From NCBI GenBank assembly GCA_016181005.1, contig JACPAE010000001.1, positions 182,207 through 246,206 of the forward strand: a stretch of DNA of 64,000 bases, given 5' to 3'. The DNA comes from Candidatus Aenigmatarchaeota archaeon (GTDB lineage: Archaea; Aenigmatarchaeota; Aenigmatarchaeia; CG10238-14; SCSR01). A model generated the notes under the pieces. That model saw only the letters and a program-made list of their open reading frames with translations. It was not told the DNA's origin and did no database searches. Position 1 is the stretch's first letter, and the number at the start of each line of letters is the position of its first letter. Positions 25,688-54,810 of this stretch are shown piece after piece. Made by a program: the position numbers and the translations under genes.

Positions 25688-27912
25688 CTAAATTTCCGGT
25701 TTAGGCACGTCCTCATTCAAGCCTTTCCTCTTCCTTATTGATTTAACTGTATCTTCAAACAAGTCCTTAGGCACCCGTTCAAATGTAGTTTCAACCAAAG
25801 AGTAGAATCCCCTGCCGCTTGTGGCCGACTTGAGCGAAGCGTCAAAACCAAATATGTCGCTGACAGGAATCTTGGCGCTGATTACGGAAGCCCCCCGTTC
25901 GTCCTTCATGTCCAGAATCTGCCCCCTCCGATTCTCAATCTCCTTTATAGCGTCACCGATAAGTTCCGTAGGAATGTCTACCCTAATAACCTGCTTCGGC
26001 TCCAATAACTGCGCGCCAGCCGCAAGCATAGCCTGCCTTATAGCCCACCTTACCGCAGGCCTTATCTGCCCCTCGCCTCTGTGCACAGGGTCTTCGTGAA
26101 GTTCCGCGTCCATCAGCTTTACTTTCAATCTCATGCATGGCTCTCTTGCCAGCGGCCCGTCTTCCATAACGTCAGTAAAAGCATCCTTGACCATCTCTAT
26201 AATCTCGTTCAAATACTGGATGCCCTTTGTCATGTCTATCAAAACATTTCTGTTGTGCATCAAAAGTATGTTTCTGGCCTCGTCATAGTCCATCCCGGTT
26301 TTCTTGAATTTCTGGAAAAGCTCTATGTTCTTTCTTTTAATCTCGCCCTCGCTTGGAAGGTCGCCCGCAAGCATAGCCTGATAAATCCCATCCTCCAAAG
26401 GTTCTACTATGATGTCGAATTTGTTGTGCTTGTTCGGGGACTTGCCTTCTATTTCAGGGGATTTGTCAAACAAAGCCTCCCGGTAAACGACAATTGGCTT
26501 GGACATATCTACATCAATTCCCAAGTCCCTCAGTTTGTGCTCAACTTTTATTTCCAGATGCAGCTCTCCAAGGCCGGAAACAAGGTATTCCCCAGTCTCT
26601 TGATTAATTTTGACAACAAGCGTCGGGTCCTCCCTGCCAAGCCTCTTCAGTATGTCGACCAGCTTCGGCAGCTCCATGGGATTCTTCGGCTCGATGGACT
26701 TGGTGACAACAGGCTCGAATATGTGCTTTATTTCCTCGAAAGGCTCAATCACTTTTCCAGCGTCTGTTATGGTCTCTCCTGTGAATGCATCAGGTATGCC
26801 GACGATGCCGACAATATTTCCTGCGGTGATTTCATCGACAGGTATTCTTTGTATCCCCCTGTAAACAACTACTTGTTGCAGTTTCTGCGTTTTATGCTGA
26901 GTTATTAAATAGACGTCCTTGCCCTTGAAAATTTTTCCGGAGAATATTCTTCCTGCAGCGACAAAGCCAACATGAGGATCCGGAACCATCTTCGTCATTA
27001 TCATCGCAAGGGTTCCATCAGGATCGCATGCCAGCATGTCTTTTCCAACATCGTTGTTCAAATCACCCTTCCATATTTTCGGAATTCTGTATTTCTGCGC
27101 ATCTAAAGGATTAGGCAAGTGTTTTACAATCATGTCGAGCACCACTTGGTGCATCGGGGCTTTTTTCGCAAGCTCGTCTTCTTTTCCTTGGATTGTCAAA
27201 TCGATTATTTCCTTGAATGTCATTCTGGTCTTCTTCATGTAAGGGATCGATATTGCCCAGCGCCTGAAAGCTGATCCAAACGCTACTGTGCCATCCATTA
27301 CATTCACAAGCCATTTCTGCTTGTACTCCTCCGGCGCGTACTTTTGGATATAAATGTTGACGTCGCGTATAACTTCCTCGAACCTTTGCATCATCTGCTC
27401 TGGAGTAAGCTTGAGTTCACGAATGAATCTGTCAACTTTGTTGACGAATAAAACTGGCTTTACATACTCTCTCAACGCTTGACGAAGAACTGTCTCTGTC
27501 TGTGGCATTATTCCTTCCACTGGATCTATAAGGACAATAGTTCCATCAACTGCTCGCATTGCGCGTGTGACATCACCTCCAAAGTCAACGTGACCCGGAG
27601 TATCTACAAGATTAATCAAGTAGTCCTTGCCGTCATATTCATGAACCATTGAAACATTAGCACCATAAACTGTGAGTTCTCTCTTTCTTTCCTCTGGATC
27701 GAACCATGTGACCATCGCTTTTCCAGCCATCTCCTCAGCAATCATGCCGGCGCCGGCCATTAAATTGTCAGTTAATGTGGTTTTTCCATGGTGTACAAAC
27801 CCGTAGATATAGCGATAAACTAAATCTATTGCGAGGACGTAGCCATGTTCCTAATTCTTGCCGGATCCTTCATTGTTTCTGTGATCCTTTCCGTCATTTC
27901 TTTCTTTGCTAT
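25688..27912 (-). CDS. fusA: Translation elongation factor EF-2, interrupted by a BHB intron
   Basis: Translocase GTPase. Exon 2 (25688-27797) encodes GKTTLTDNLMAGAGMIAEEMAGKAM through the C-terminal domains, with DTPGHVDFGG, FVNKVDR and the diphthamide-loop region. The N-terminus lies in exon 1 (27830-27912): MAKKEMTERITETMKDPARI, then RNMATSS. Without splicing the frame hits TAG and is out of phase with exon 2. Removing 27798-27829 joins CA to T, giving RNMATSSHVHHGKTT, the normal archaeal EF-2 sequence. Total 83 + 2110 nt = 730 aa plus stop. The start is probably ATA 27912, with AGGTGA 5 nt upstream; GTG 27921 is the conventional alternative. Confidence 0.9.
27798..27829 (-). other. 32-nt bulge-helix-bulge intron in the EF-2 gene
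   Basis: Read on the minus strand: 5' exon CTCG, bulge CA^A, inner stem TAGAT, 15-nt loop, ATCTA, then CGGG, bulge TT^T, 3' exon GTAC. CTCG pairs with CGGG (4-bp central helix with one G-U) and TAGAT with ATCTA (5 bp). Both bulges are 3 nt, with cuts after the second base, exactly as required by archaeal splicing endonuclease. The cut sites predicted from structure are the ones that restore the EF-2 frame and the HVHHGKTT motif. Confidence 0.88.
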
Positions 27913-28189
27913 GATTTTCACCTACATTCATTGACTTTAGATTCTGATTTAAACTCCAAACCTTATAAGAGTTGTTAATTGTAGAATTTAACACATTCAT
28001 TCTTTCCACCAAATTTAACAAAGATCTTGTAGTTCTCTCACTTCTATTTATTTTTAATTGAACTTCTCTTTTACTTAACAATTTCTTCTTTTCGAAGAAT
28101 TTTATTATATCTGAAAAGTTTACAGAACTTTTCCTTTGAAAAGGATATAATGTATAAAATATATCTAGATTTTCGCTGCTAAAGTCCAA
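27851..28189 (-). CDS. Possible winged-helix protein overlapping EF-2 exon 1
   Basis: 112 aa. NFSDIIKFFEKKKLLSKREVQLKINRSERTTRSLLNLVERMNVLN plus YKVWSLN looks like a winged HTH, with SERTTRSLLNL as recognition helix. The last 20 codons run through EF-2 exon 1 in another frame, so that tail is probably not under selection. If real, the gene overlaps EF-2 by about 62 nt and would be co-transcribed with it. Confidence 0.5.
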   Translation of the reverse strand: MDFSSENLDIFYTLYPFQRKSSVNFSDIIKFFEKKKLLSKREVQLKINRSERTTRSLLNLVERMNVLNSTINNSYKVWSLNQNLKSMNVGENHSKERNDGKDHRNNEGSGKN

Positions 28190-30439: not shown

Positions 30440-31558
30440 TTACTCTTCGCTTCTCACTATAAGGTCAAACATTCCAGTTCCTGCCGGCACAATCTGCCCC
30501 ACCATGACATTCTCAAAGATTCCCTGCAAGTTGTCAATCTCGTTCCTTATCGAAGCCTTGACAAGATGCTTTATCGTCTCCTCGAAGGCAGCCCGAGCAA
30601 GAATAGAAGTCTTCGCTCCTGCAACACCATAGCGCCCTATAGAATCAACAGCGCCGCTAAATGTCATAATGTCGGCAACAAGAGTAACATACCTGACATC
30701 CACGTCAAGCGCCTGCTCCTGCATTGTCTTCAAAGCCTCCCTTATTATGACGCTCCTTGCGGCTTCTATGCCTAGCACAGATTCTATCTCATAAATGTCA
30801 TTTGTGAACGTTTTCTTCTCATCGACTTCCTTTATTTTCAGCACATCGCTCAAATTAGTTCCTATAGTGTTTATTATCCAGTCATCCTCCTCTTTTCTAA
30901 CAAGAGCGTTTTTAATCCCTTTAACTCCCGTAACAGACAGCATCAGAATCTTTTCTTTCAGCTTCTGCAGCTCCTTAACGTCATCAGTCTTCGCTATAAC
31001 TGAAATCTTATCCTCCCTAGACCTGACATTCACGTTCTTCACAGACTCTTTGATAATCCTTTGCATCACATCAACCCTTCTCTTGTCGGAGACTTCAATT
31101 TCTATCGCGTTCTCGTTCAAGTTCAGCGAGATCCGATTAATGAGATTCATAACCTTCTTTTCTATAACAAATTCCGCAAGTTTAGCGGCCTCGGTCGCAT
31201 TGTTGCTTTCTCTCTTCAAATATATGGTCATCATGGGAGTCTCGGGCGTCTTTTTGGCATCGAAAATTTCTATTAGCCTAGGCAGGCCATAAGTAACTCT
31301 TATCCCGGCTGTTCCTGCAAAGTGATAAGTACGCATCGTCATCTGTGTAGCTGGTTCAGAAATGCTTTGGGCAGCAATTATTCCTATTCCCTCGGCCGGT
31401 TCAAATCTGCCTTGAAGATAAACTTTCTTGACTTCTTCAAGCAGCTTCTGCTTCTTCTCCGCATTCAGTCTCATTTCCTTCCCGACATTCTCCACTTCTT
31501 CCAGCAATTTACTAGGCAAGTTGTCTTCATGCGAATTTGTCTGCGATTTCTCTGACAT
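30440..31558 (-). CDS. rpoA2: RNA polymerase subunit A''
   Basis: 372 aa, C-terminal part of the largest subunit. FEPAEGIGIIAAQSISEPATQMTMRTYHFAG begins the trigger-loop/bridge region, and VTYGLPRLIEIFDAKKTP, YVTLVADIMTFSGAVDSIGRYG and AILARAAFEETIKHL-type segments follow. Its start overlaps the stop of the fused B'-A' gene by 32 nt, so the split between A' and A'' is the standard archaeal one. Confidence 0.97.
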   Translation of the reverse strand: MSEKSQTNSHEDNLPSKLLEEVENVGKEMRLNAEKKQKLLEEVKKVYLQGRFEPAEGIGIIAAQSISEPATQMTMRTYHFAGTAGIRVTYGLPRLIEIFDAKKTPETPMMTIYLKRESNNATEAAKLAEFVIEKKVMNLINRISLNLNENAIEIEVSDKRRVDVMQRIIKESVKNVNVRSREDKISVIAKTDDVKELQKLKEKILMLSVTGVKGIKNALVRKEEDDWIINTIGTNLSDVLKIKEVDEKKTFTNDIYEIESVLGIEAARSVIIREALKTMQEQALDVDVRYVTLVADIMTFSGAVDSIGRYGVAGAKTSILARAAFEETIKHLVKASIRNEIDNLQGIFENVMVGQIVPAGTGMFDLIVRSEE

Positions 31559-34500
31559 TTATTCCTCCACTTTCTATTTTTGACGGATCCAAACCATCCT
31601 CGCCCGGCACAAACTGCACTATCCTGTTGGCGCTGTCCCTTACAGTACCGTCGTATTCGACTTTCAAATCCTGCAGCGCACCGACCAGCCTTCTTTCCAT
31701 ATAACCGCTGTGCCTTGTCTTCAGCGACTTGTCCATAAGCGACTCCCTGCTGTTGATAGCATCGAAGAAGAATTCAAACGGCGTAACACCGTCCTTGAAC
31801 CCTCTACTGACGAATCCTGTCGCCTCCAAGCTCAACGTTCCTGGCTTGAAATGCGGAAATGTCCGCTGATAATAACCCTTCTCTATCCTCTCACCCATAA
31901 CCATCTCCTGCCCGACCATCGCAGCAGTTTGCACAATGTTCACAACCGATCCCCTGGCACCGCTCCTCACCATTGCAAGTGTAAAGTTGTCCTTCAAATA
32001 CTTCTCAAGAACTTTTTGCACATCATTCAACCCGTTCCTCAGGATTGTTTTGACAATGTGGTCAAGGCTCTCCTTCGGCGACCTGCCGACAAGAAGCTTC
32101 AACTCGCCCCTCTCATATTTCTTGTTTGTGTCGTCAACATCTTTCCTCAGGGTTTCTATAATCTCCTTTATGTCCTTCTTCGCATTCTCCGGCAGGTCCT
32201 GGTCAGACAAGCTGATGGAAAATCCAATAAGCATAAGATAGTTTATCGCCAGCCTTGTAACATTGTAGATGAACTTTTTAGTAGCCTCGCCGCCGTACAC
32301 CTTTTCCATCTTGTCTATTATTTTTCCGGCCTCGGCTCCGATGGCAACTTTGTCTATAGCCCCCTTTAAAAGCCTGCCATTCTCTATCACGACACTTTCC
32401 CCTGTGTTCGATTTGAATTCGAGCGAGAATCCTTTCGGCAGGAACGTGCTGAACACTTCTTTTCCTGTAAGATGCTCCTTGTCCGGCAACTCTATGCTCT
32501 GGTCGACAGCCCTTACAAGCTGCGTGAACTCTTTTCTTGAAAGTTTGACATTGTCCTGTGTCAGAAGATACGATCCGGTTATGTGGTCACGTATGGCTCC
32601 TATGACAGGCCCCGAGAATCTCGGGCTTCGTATGTGCTTCGGCACCATCATCAAATTCTCCACCTCAACCTTTGCCTCTTCTGTCTGTGGCACATGAAGG
32701 TTCATCTCATCCCCGTCAAAATCGGCATTGTAAGGAGTGGTCGCGCTGAGATTCATTCTGAAAGTTTTGAAGGGCATGACCTTGACTTTATGCCCCATCA
32801 AGCTCATCCTGTGAAGGCTGGGTTGCCTATTGAAAATAACAATGTCGCCGTTCTGCAAATGCCTCTCCACAATGTAGCCAGGGGCAATCTCGGTTGCTAT
32901 CTCGCTCTTGTTCAAATCGGTTATCTTCTTTCTCCTTCCGTCGGGCCTGATTACGTAATTTGCTCCCGGCCAAATCTCTGAACCGTTCAGGACGAGCTTT
33001 TTGAGCTCTTCCAAGTCGCTTTCGTTAACTTTGACAGGCATTGTCAATTCTTTCGCGATGACTTCAGGAACTCCAACCTCGTCAATATCGATCATTGGAT
33101 CTGGTGAGATGACAGTTCTCGCAGAAAAGTTAACCCTCTTGCCGGCAAGGTTTCCTCTGAATCTCCCTTCCTTGGTCTTCAACCTCTGCGACAGTGTCTT
33201 AAGCACCCTTCCCGATCTGTGCCTTGCAGGCGGGACTCCAGACAGCTCATTGTCGAAATAAGTTGATATATGGTACTGCAAAAGTTCCCACAAGTCTTCA
33301 AGTATAAAGTCTGGCGCACCCAAGTCGATGTTCTCCTTTAACCTGTCATTAATCCTTACTATGTCAACAAGTTTGTGCGTGAGGTCGTCCTCGCTCCTCT
33401 CCCCTGTCTCGAGTGTGATAGACGGTCTTACGGTAACAGGCGGTATAGGCATCAGCGTCAGCACAAGCCACTCCGGCCTCACCTTCAAGCCGATCACGTC
33501 AAGGTCCTCCTGTGAAATCTTCTCCAACATTTCCCTCACCTCGCCAAAATTCAGCGTCCTTGCTCCTTCGACAAACGTGTAAGGCTTGATGAACTTGAAC
33601 TTCTTCTGCTCAGTATTGCAGTGCGGACACTTTTTTCTGGACATTGTCACAAGCTCTTTAAAGTTCATTTTCTTCCCCCTGGCCTTTTCAATGTCCTTGG
33701 GATCAACGAGCATCTTGACGCACTTGTGGCAAAACATTTTCAAAAGCGCAAAAACAATTTTCGAATAGTGTACATGTATGATGGGTTTTGTCAGTTCCAA
33801 GTAGCCGAAATGCCCGTGGCAGTCTCCCACATTTCCCCCGCAAGTCCTGCATCTCACACCAGGATCTATAACCCCAAGCCTCGGGTCCATCAAGCCACCT
33901 TCAATCGGATAGCCTTCTTGGTCGTAAAGCTCTGTCTTGGTCAGCTTGGCCGCGGCAATGCTCTTCACCATCTCAGGCGAGACGATTCCAAATTCCAGCT
34001 TGCTCACCTTCATCAGGTTCTCGTCGACAACAATCTTCGGATAAATAAGCATGCTCTTGAGCTCGTCCAGCATAAGCTTGAACGCGTAGCTCATCTCCAC
34101 ATCAACTATCTTTGACTCTCCATGTATCGGGCAAATTTTTTTGTTCTTTACGCGGTCCTGAATGGAAACCAAGCCGCAGAGGGTGCAGATACATACAGTC
34201 GTCTTGTCAGAGTCGAACCTTTCTTTCAGCACAAGCGACGCACCATGAGCTATGAGGCAGTCCTTCTCCATCTCACCAAGCCTCAGACCGCCTTCCTTGC
34301 TTCTTCCTTCAGTCGGTTGCTTTGTCAGCAGCGTCACAGGTCCCCTCGATCTCGCATGTATTTTGTTTGAAACAAGATGATCCAGCTTCTGGTAAAACGT
34401 GCTTCCGATAAATATCTGAGAGTCGAATCTCTTTCCTGTCCTGCCATCGTACATTATTTCCTTCCCGTCGTTTCTAAATCCATGAGCCACCAAAGTGTTT

Positions 34501-35810
34501 CTAAGTTCATTCTCCGGCGTCGGGCTGAACGCAGACGCATTCACGTACTTGCCAGTAAGCGCAGCCACCTTGCCTGCGATAATCTCCAGCAACTGCCCCA
34601 TAGTCATTCTTGACGGAATGCCGTGGGGATTGAAAATTATGTCCGGCACAATACCGCTTTCTGTGAACGGCATGTCTTCAGACGGAACAACAAGGGCGAT
34701 TACACCTTTCTGGCCGTGCCTTGACGCAAGCTTGTCGCCGATTTCAGGAACCTTCATGTCCCTAACAGCAACTTTAATCAGCTTTGTGCCGTCAGTAGTG
34801 TCGGTTATGAAAACCCTGTCAACAACTCCATGGTCGCCATGCCTAAGCCTTAAAGAAGTTTCGCGTATGTTCTCCAGGCCTGTGACAAACTTGTCCATGG
34901 TACCCAAGAACCTAAGCGGCGACACCCTCCCGATTATCACCTGATCCGATTCCAAAATTGTTTCCGGATTCGATATCCCGTCTTCCGGCAGATGCTTGTA
35001 TGAGTCCTCGCCAGCATAACCTCTGACGCCGGCCTCAGGTATCGCTATTATGTCCTCCTGGCCTCCAAGATACCTTTTTTGCTCCGCTTCATAAGACCTG
35101 TACATGTAGGACCACAGAACACCTTTCTGCAAAGAGCCTGCATTTATGACTATGCTGTCTTCCATGTTGTACCCATCAAAGGACGCCACTGCAATTATCA
35201 GATTGTTTCCGTTCGGATGGGTATTGTAAGGGATGACATCGTATGCATGGGTCTGCACCAAGGGCCTTTGAGGGTAAATCATCACGTTCGACTTGGTGTC
35301 GACTCTGGAAAGGAAATTCGTGGCAAAAATTCCAATGGACTGCCCGACCATTTTAGCCCCGTAGTTGACCCTGTCCCCCCTGTTGAATTCTGGGAACGGA
35401 ATGAAAGATGCAGAGAAACCCAAAATTACTGCTGGATCCATTTCAATATGAGTGTGGTCCGGCGTAAGCTCGTTCTCATCAAGTGCAATCAAAGAGTTTT
35501 CCTCCTCCTCGCTGTCAAGATACTCAACAACGCCGGTCTTCACCAATTCACTCCAGTTAATCTCACCTTTCTTCAATTTCTCCACTAGCTCTTTCGTCAA
35601 TTTCGGGACTCCCCTCTCGACAACAATCAACGGCCTTCTCACTCTTCCGGATTCCGACAGAATTCTGACTTCGTCCAAATTCCGGTGGTAAACTACATTT
35701 ACTTCATAGGGTATAACCCCGGCCCTTCTCTTTTCCCTGATATCTCTAACAAGCTTTTCCGGATCTGCCGTGTCGCCAACAAACTTGCCGTCAAAAAATA
35801 TCGTGCTCAT
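31527..35810 (-). CDS. rpoB1-rpoA1: Fused RNA polymerase subunits B' and A'
   Basis: One continuous frame of 1427 aa. Residues 1 to about 599 are B': GDKLASRHGQKGVIALVVPSEDMPF, ARSRGPVTLLTKQPTEGRS, a zinc ribbon (CICTLCGL...CPIHG), and AFKLMLDELKSM, which is where B' normally ends. After a short linker (LIYPKIVVDENL), residue 600 starts A': MKVSKLEFGIVSPEMVKSI, GLMDPRLGVIDPGVRCRTCGG, RFRGNLAGKRVNFSARTVISPDP, and the catalytic NADFDGDEMNLH. No stop or frameshift lies at the junction (near 34011-34013). Neighbours are the normal B'' upstream and A'' downstream. The polymerase would have B' and A' covalently joined, similar in principle to the bacterial rpoB-rpoC fusions. Confidence 0.95.
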   Translation of the reverse strand: MSTIFFDGKFVGDTADPEKLVRDIREKRRAGVIPYEVNVVYHRNLDEVRILSESGRVRRPLIVVERGVPKLTKELVEKLKKGEINWSELVKTGVVEYLDSEEEENSLIALDENELTPDHTHIEMDPAVILGFSASFIPFPEFNRGDRVNYGAKMVGQSIGIFATNFLSRVDTKSNVMIYPQRPLVQTHAYDVIPYNTHPNGNNLIIAVASFDGYNMEDSIVINAGSLQKGVLWSYMYRSYEAEQKRYLGGQEDIIAIPEAGVRGYAGEDSYKHLPEDGISNPETILESDQVIIGRVSPLRFLGTMDKFVTGLENIRETSLRLRHGDHGVVDRVFITDTTDGTKLIKVAVRDMKVPEIGDKLASRHGQKGVIALVVPSEDMPFTESGIVPDIIFNPHGIPSRMTMGQLLEIIAGKVAALTGKYVNASAFSPTPENELRNTLVAHGFRNDGKEIMYDGRTGKRFDSQIFIGSTFYQKLDHLVSNKIHARSRGPVTLLTKQPTEGRSKEGGLRLGEMEKDCLIAHGASLVLKERFDSDKTTVCICTLCGLVSIQDRVKNKKICPIHGESKIVDVEMSYAFKLMLDELKSMLIYPKIVVDENLMKVSKLEFGIVSPEMVKSIAAAKLTKTELYDQEGYPIEGGLMDPRLGVIDPGVRCRTCGGNVGDCHGHFGYLELTKPIIHVHYSKIVFALLKMFCHKCVKMLVDPKDIEKARGKKMNFKELVTMSRKKCPHCNTEQKKFKFIKPYTFVEGARTLNFGEVREMLEKISQEDLDVIGLKVRPEWLVLTLMPIPPVTVRPSITLETGERSEDDLTHKLVDIVRINDRLKENIDLGAPDFILEDLWELLQYHISTYFDNELSGVPPARHRSGRVLKTLSQRLKTKEGRFRGNLAGKRVNFSARTVISPDPMIDIDEVGVPEVIAKELTMPVKVNESDLEELKKLVLNGSEIWPGANYVIRPDGRRKKITDLNKSEIATEIAPGYIVERHLQNGDIVIFNRQPSLHRMSLMGHKVKVMPFKTFRMNLSATTPYNADFDGDEMNLHVPQTEEAKVEVENLMMVPKHIRSPRFSGPVIGAIRDHITGSYLLTQDNVKLSRKEFTQLVRAVDQSIELPDKEHLTGKEVFSTFLPKGFSLEFKSNTGESVVIENGRLLKGAIDKVAIGAEAGKIIDKMEKVYGGEATKKFIYNVTRLAINYLMLIGFSISLSDQDLPENAKKDIKEIIETLRKDVDDTNKKYERGELKLLVGRSPKESLDHIVKTILRNGLNDVQKVLEKYLKDNFTLAMVRSGARGSVVNIVQTAAMVGQEMVMGERIEKGYYQRTFPHFKPGTLSLEATGFVSRGFKDGVTPFEFFFDAINSRESLMDKSLKTRHSGYMERRLVGALQDLKVEYDGTVRDSANRIVQFVPGEDGLDPSKIESGGINVREIADKFA

Positions 35811-38560: not shown

Positions 38561-38710
38561 ATGCCAAAAACATTAATAGATTCTACTTATGCAGGTGAAA
38601 TCAGGGTTTTGTCGGCGTTGGAAGGTAAACACAGTCGATTATACGACTATGATACAGATCCATTGGCAGAACCTATAGGTTATGAAAAATGTCCCGAAGG
38701 AGAGATTTGA
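38561..38710 (+). CDS. Possible 49-aa protein overlapping tRNA-Tyr
   Basis: MPKTLIDSTYAGEIRVLSALEG, then RLYDYDTDPLAEPIGYEKCPEGEI. The frame runs 19 nt into the 3' end of the opposite-strand tRNA-Tyr, so at least its tail is constrained by the tRNA. Weakly supported. Confidence 0.28.
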   Translation: MPKTLIDSTYAGEIRVLSALEGKHSRLYDYDTDPLAEPIGYEKCPEGEI

Positions 38711-38802
38711 ACTCTCAACCTCACCGTATCCGGTAGAGTGCTGATCACTAGCACAATAGTACTAGGCTACAGCGGCGCGCTCCACCATTGAGCTACTTCG
38801 GG
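38692..38802 (-). tRNA. tRNA-Tyr(GTA) with intron
   Basis: Acceptor CCCGAAG/CTTCGGG with the archaeal Tyr identity pair C1-G72 and A73; T8 A9; D-stem GCTC/GAGC; anticodon stem CGCCG/CGGTG; T-arm GAGAG-ttcaaat-CTCTC. The loop CTGTAG...A is split by 39 nt (about 38728-38766, canonical 37/38). Within the intron GTGCT/AGCAC forms a hairpin and GTAG of the anticodon pairs with CTAC, but the strict 3-4-3 BHB is not perfect, so the boundary may differ or two introns may be present. TATA-like taaataaatac lies about 24 nt upstream. Confidence 0.85.
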
Positions 38803-54601: not shown

Positions 54602-54674
54602 GATAACACCAAATACAATGTCTGTATACTAGAAGTAATAAAGTTAATCCGAGTTCATTTCCCCAGACGTTTAA

Positions 54675-54774
54675 TGGACCGGGAGAGATTTGAACTCTCG
54701 TCCCCCTGCTTTCTTAGATATACGGAGCAAAGTCGTATAAGACAGGTGCTCCAACCAGACTAAGCTACCGGTCC
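54675..54774 (-). tRNA. tRNA-Ile(TAT) with 25-nt intron
   Basis: Acceptor GGACCGG/CCGGTCC, A73; T8 A9; D-stem GCTT/GAGC; anticodon stem CCTGT/GCAGG; T-arm GAGAG-ttcaaat-CTCTC. The body closely matches archaeal tRNA-Ile. Intron 54711-54735 at canonical 37/38: CTTA pairs with TAAG, bulges TA^C and AA^A. The mature loop is CTTATAA, anticodon UAU (54737-54739), which reads AUA directly instead of the usual agmatidine-modified CAU. Total 75 + 25 nt. Confidence 0.88.
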
Positions 54775-54810
54775 ATGTATTTATATCATTGTGCAATCGA
54801 TTTATTAATT

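Follow-up and report, generated by a model that had tools for sequence, protein, structure and literature searches.

The frame of the aEF-2 gene on the minus strand of the window (the whole 64,000-nucleotide stretch of DNA analyzed here) is broken at about codon 23-31. The upstream frame reads ...RIRNMATSSQ and ends at a TAG, and the downstream part lies in a different frame. The downstream part is intact: it scores 959.6 bits against TIGR00490, the aEF-2 equivalog model (cut-off, 738), and over 690 aa it shares 85%-86% identity with homologues from the same genus. A second EF-2 is absent from the window's own genome (G000; 740 kb in five contigs), where the only other match is weak, with 27% identity.

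The initial annotation had attributed the break to a 32-nt bulge-helix-bulge (BHB) intron in the EF-2 mRNA at 27798-27829. Deletion of this segment gives RIRNMATSSHVHHGKTT, the same as in uninterrupted same-genus homologues; the exact deletion reads ...RNMATSSHVHHGKTTLTDNL, in agreement with the intact relatives G001 and G002, whose uninterrupted genes read RIRNIATSSHVHHGKTTLTDNL. Joining CA↓T in silico (arrows mark cuts or junctions) yields RIRNMATSSHVHHGKTTLTDNL. Since the G001 and G002 genes are uninterrupted and match, the junction was set by protein homology, with no use of RNA structure. It falls at the same position as the BHB-dictated cut sites. The coordinates of the break and of the segment were correctly placed, and the rejoined SSHVHHGKTT, originally derived from structure alone, is as found in G001 and G002. 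The features of the interrupted gene are as follows.

27830-27921, minus strand: EF-2 exon 1, start GTG 27921, alternative ATG 27897; ends within the His codon (CA↓); aligned to the intact relatives L003 and L004
27832-27835, minus strand: central helix (4 bp), exonic strand CTCG, paired to 27800-27803
27829-27831, minus strand: bulge 1 (CA↓A), the 5' cut site
27798-27829, minus strand: 32-nt BHB intron, ATAGATTTAGTTTATCGCTATATCTACGGGTT, with an in-frame stop TAG at 27828-27826
27824-27828, minus strand: inner helix, 5' strand TAGAT
27804-27808, minus strand: inner helix, 3' strand ATCTA
27800-27803, minus strand: central helix, intronic strand CGGG
27797-27799, minus strand: bulge 2 (TT↓T), the 3' cut site
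25688-27797, minus strand: EF-2 exon 2, begins with the final base of the His codon, holds VHHGKTT (P-loop) and runs to the stop

The predicted length of 730 aa did not hold. The spliced product is 733 aa long if translation begins at GTG 27921 and 725 aa long if it begins at ATG 27897; 730 aa would require the start homologous to that of the relatives, which is ATG in G001 and ATA here. Most GTPases of the EF-2 kind have Asp where VHHGKTT has His, and a wrong junction was suspected from this residue; the suspicion was ruled out, the His being a clade trait seen in intact relatives too. Two further open reading frames of the window may be mentioned. One of 112 aa (27851-28189, minus strand) overlaps exon 1 in another frame and is either a real upstream gene or due to chance. 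Another, of 1427 aa (31527-35810, minus strand), is an apparent fusion of RNA polymerase B'' and A', parts that lie in different frames at the junction in several relatives.

The RNA structure around the junction has the elements expected of a BHB. CTCG (27835-27832) and CGGG (27803-27800) form a 4-bp central helix including one G·U pair, TAGAT and ATCTA form an inner helix of 5 bp, and cuts after the second base of the 3-nt bulges CAA and TTT rebuild the His codon (CA + T). The description of this motif as "textbook" stands for the central helix, the inner helix and the two 3-nt bulges. It is slightly generous for the outer helix, UACG/UGUA followed by CAUGG/CCAUG, which is present and set off from the central helix by a 2×2 UC/UU loop, so that bulge 2 does not lie strictly on one side. 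Folding of the region recovers the BHB with a minimum free energy of -17.9 kcal/mol (z = -2.63; 3 of 200 shuffles equal or better), and shuffling the intron with the exons fixed gives p = 0.006. No Rfam intron family was detected in the window at the gathering threshold. A group I or II self-splicing intron was rejected, as 32 nt leave no room for a catalytic RNA core. An intein at this site was likewise rejected: the insertion is just 32 nt and has an in-frame stop and, unlike an intein, must therefore go at the RNA level.

The short hairpin, placed just after a stop codon and close to the 5' end, has an outward likeness to the hop elements of translational bypassing, and a ribosome hopping over the 32 nt would leave the RNA whole. 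Such an element was considered and rejected: the take-off codon, CAA, differs from TTT, the codon preceding the resumption point, and the unspliced RNA contains no complete codon for the His seen in relatives. The geometry of helix and bulges, moreover, is that of an EndA substrate and recurs in 48 tested introns of six genes. Bypassing is barely credible on these grounds.

Further evidence for an intron comes from recurrence. EF-2 was searched across the class (156 genomes, 139 with a match), and many of the genes have stops or a match that begins only near residue 21-26. Loci, chosen partly for stops or truncated matches, were inspected with a spliced protein-to-DNA aligner and a BHB finder. 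The class yielded 50 mRNA introns of BHB type in all, 13-35 nt long: 23 in EF-2 (15 genomes), 21 in RtcB (17 genomes) and the rest in Cbf5, aIF2gamma, Top6B and uS10. To judge from sequence, the EF-2 intron has many counterparts in mRNAs across the class, two of them in RtcB of the same genome, a setting that the initial annotation could not see. The same insertion was found in relatives: G010 and G098 have an intron in the same His codon and in the same phase, with changed helices (CTCG/CGAG and GCGC/GCGT, respectively). Five genomes (G095, G133, G115, G134 and G064) carry an intron one codon downstream, and in G021, G079 and G083 it lies at HID↓HGK, with an A·G closing pair. G075 and G087 are interrupted at HGK↓TT, where TGGA/TCCA has undergone a compensatory change to CGGA/TCCG; their second bulge is 5 nt by hand reading, and the automatic fit differs. 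Several introns may occupy one gene: EF-2 of G010 has five (29, 32, 14, 31 and 17 nt), and the EF-2 genes of G011 and G134 have three apiece. Every EF-2 intron site is in or near the GTPase motifs, and intein-sized insertions are present at or beside HGK↓TT in G003, G006, G016, G046, G047 and G091. No intron-sized event was seen in the single-stop EF-2 rows of families f12, f15 and f28 (G054, G100, G144, G145 and G149-G152); G120 was excluded for poor alignment.

Central-helix pairing between the exonic and the intronic strand was scored over 48 introns, and 175/192 cells are paired. When intronic strands were permuted between introns, 42% were paired on average with a maximum of 112/192, and none of 5000 permutations reached the observed value. 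Shuffled sequences were beaten at p < 0.05 by 43 introns and not by the other 5. Related introns are not independent, and a combined p-value should for this reason not be taken literally. Some members of the set are partly relaxed, with an A·G or G·A closing pair or, by hand reading, a 5-nt second bulge. An in-frame stop occurs in 47/48 introns against about 55% expected, an excess that is only suggestive of a real signal since many loci were picked for stops; in the gene-scanned genomes G000 and G010, all nine introns whose length is not a multiple of three hold one.

The same assembly supplies two negative controls, frame breaks of 23 nt in uS11 (G000:C5:172609) and 26 nt in another conserved gene (G000:C2:58667). 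Both are tandem duplications without a BHB, with p values of 0.93 and 0.94, and may be errors or true mutations. Their presence lends some support to the idea that EF-2 is a decayed pseudogene or that the 32 nt arose as an error of sequencing or assembly. The EF-2 segment, however, is not a duplication; the gene is the genome's sole EF-2, with exon 2 as well conserved as noted above, and comparable introns in 15 genomes have protein-exact junctions and covarying helices. Decay or error is therefore a very improbable explanation.

The enzymes needed for splicing are encoded in G000, with an EndA of 188 aa and one RtcB gene. EndA (L001:1474-2040) is present as a single gene and is nearest in length to the M. 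jannaschii enzyme (1a79, E = 1.9e-28); length is the sole basis for its inferred oligomeric state. Among the alpha-type enzymes of the class that were aligned, Tyr115 and His125 are kept, and the position of Lys156, a catalytic residue in M. jannaschii EndA, is Ala (Thr in G021). All of them have a stretch rich in Lys and Arg, KLKRGPK-like, ahead of the catalytic His. G134, G115 and G095 have additional EndA types of ~400 aa in which the Lys is present. The lack of Lys156 weighs against the splicing reading for EF-2, and activity of the class enzyme on such substrates is only inferred. In G000, ARAGORN places introns 7-39 nt long in tRNA genes; a 4-bp central helix and 3-nt bulges are seen in several of them, and some are relaxed. 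These BHB-related motifs imply a working tRNA splicing system. Two of the genes are in the window.

38691-38802: tRNA-Tyr gene, intron 39 nt
54674-54775: tRNA-Ser gene, intron 25 nt

The missing third catalytic residue, together with the interruption of the ligase gene itself, leaves some room for splicing by other means, for example a self-splicing RNA or another ligase. The introns, at 13-35 nt, are nevertheless far below the size of group I or II introns, the geometry of bulges and cuts is that of EndA, and related motifs are found in the tRNA introns of the same genome. Splicing without EndA and RtcB is accordingly judged very unlikely.

The proposal that the EF-2 mRNA contains a BHB intron is by far the best reading and is supported by the agreement of junction, structure, intact relatives, same-site introns (G010 and G098), EndA, RtcB and many tRNA introns. 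Segment 27798-27829 is very probably an archaeal BHB intron of the aEF-2 pre-mRNA, cut by EndA, joined by RtcB and one of a class-wide set of mRNA introns. Frame, exact junction, geometry, recurrence, helix covariation and the EndA and RtcB genes are observations; cleavage, ligation and any regulatory role are inferences, there being no RNA or protein data. Further limits are the interrupted outer helix and the nature of the genomes, which are assemblies whose raw reads were not seen. In the predicted pathway, EndA, the tRNA splicing endonuclease, would cleave each 3-nt bulge between its second and third bases, leaving exon ends with a 2',3'-cyclic phosphate and a 5'-OH for RtcB to seal. Ligation would remake the His codon of HVHHGKTT and give the genome's only EF-2; on mRNA left unspliced, translation would be expected to end at the TAG right after exon 1. 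The introns of the set to which this one belongs, 13-35 nt long, are mostly located at highly conserved active-site codons of essential genes.

RtcB itself belongs to this set. The single gene of G000 (G000:C2:74457-75833, L157) has two BHB-type introns, one of 32 nt whose removal restores PDGH↓SGYGFPIGG (central helix GGTC/GGCA with an outer G·A) and one of 31 nt whose removal restores GFDI↓NCGMRL (central helix CGAT/GTCG). The smallest of the RtcB introns resolved in the class, of 16 and 13 nt, are in a second RtcB copy of G011. EF-2 and RtcB introns alike are at or beside sites occupied by inteins in relatives; on the intact G003 protein, the NCBIfam model of intein-containing RtcB picks up again at residue 106, beside the second intron site, and RtcB intein frames of the class resume next to FDIN↓C. 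With its mRNA interrupted in G000, the ligase would be needed for its own mRNA. An inherited enzyme pool might suffice for such a loop, which could hold a stable level, although this is only a hypothesis.

The extent of interruption was gauged in two genomes. Non-overlapping ORFs and spliced protein-to-DNA alignment were used for this, in place of a comparison of ORFs in all six frames, which yielded chiefly shadow-ORF noise. In G000, introns were found only in EF-2 and RtcB among 251 aligned regions (contigs amounting to about half of the genome). The G010 sample (roughly 200 kb, 82 regions aligned) has, besides EF-2, introns in Top6B, uS10, Cbf5 and aIF2gamma, the last at VGH↓VAHGKTT, like EF-2. 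Introns in Cbf5 of G010 (G010:C6, about 10502), G091 and G064 (L267, L272) fall between the first and second bases of the catalytic-Asp codon; Cbf5 of G010 also has an apparent intein-sized insertion near residue 175. Breaks on G010:C7 were left uncounted; most of them fall within the 23S rRNA gene or next to it. That gene (L135, 6323-10784) is 4462 nt long against 2987 for the model, suggesting several rRNA introns.

Such introns would change gene prediction for these genomes, where genes for essential proteins have the look of broken or truncated ones and EF-2 would be called without its P-loop. They also raise the question of how a cell makes a ligase whose mRNA requires that ligase. A broader reading, held with moderate confidence, is that removal of short BHB introns operates throughout a class of small archaea, on a number of essential mRNAs and at codons of their active sites. 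RtcB, where only one gene for it was found, would be among the interrupted genes in several of these archaea, G000 included, and splicing would then be a self-dependent loop that could set or lock splicing capacity. Sites common to inteins and, for Cbf5, to Crenarchaeota would point to site-directed spread, for example from mobile ancestors capable of homing, or to introns of great age, and not to chance insertion. Introns and inteins hold the same sites in different relatives, which makes intron origin testable.

The initial annotation's view that few archaeal coding BHB introns are known agrees with the literature: a 2020 statement gives cbf5 as the one reported archaeal coding mRNA intron (PMC7714728). 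No report of BHB introns in EF-2 or RtcB was found in the open literature searched (subscription papers and most preprints were outside it), where the only earlier mRNA cases are crenarchaeal cbf5 and a Haloferax 5'-UTR intron. The mechanism itself is the known BHB one. Judged against that literature, the novelty lies in which genes and which class are affected, in how many introns one gene can hold, in the interruption of the ligase and in the sharing of sites.

The cbf5 pre-mRNA intron of Desulfurococcales and Sulfolobales is BHB-type, 16-44 nt long, cut between the second and third bulge bases and placed at the catalytic codon; these introns have been tied to a hetero-oligomeric EndA and mostly have unconventional motifs (PMC2738675). 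Cbf5 introns of the class are at the identical position. In contrast, the EF-2 intron is in a different gene and kingdom, and the class has several interrupted genes with up to five introns per gene. G000 and several relatives, moreover, have a single short alpha-type EndA gene, and many class sites have a fully paired 4-bp central helix. The class introns thereby call into question the proposal that mRNA introns arose with a relaxed hetero-oligomeric EndA. BHB sites in the HVO_1309 mRNA of Haloferax volcanii are cleaved by EndA, with the intron in the 5' UTR (PMC7714728), whereas the EF-2 intron lies within coding sequence, in a gene that is essential, and breaks its frame. The tRNA introns of archaea share the 4-bp central helix and 3-nt bulges, but the EF-2 intron lies in an mRNA, without a tRNA fold to place the enzyme. 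The inteins of EF-2 and RtcB occupy the same conserved motifs as the introns; they are several hundred residues long and are removed from the protein.
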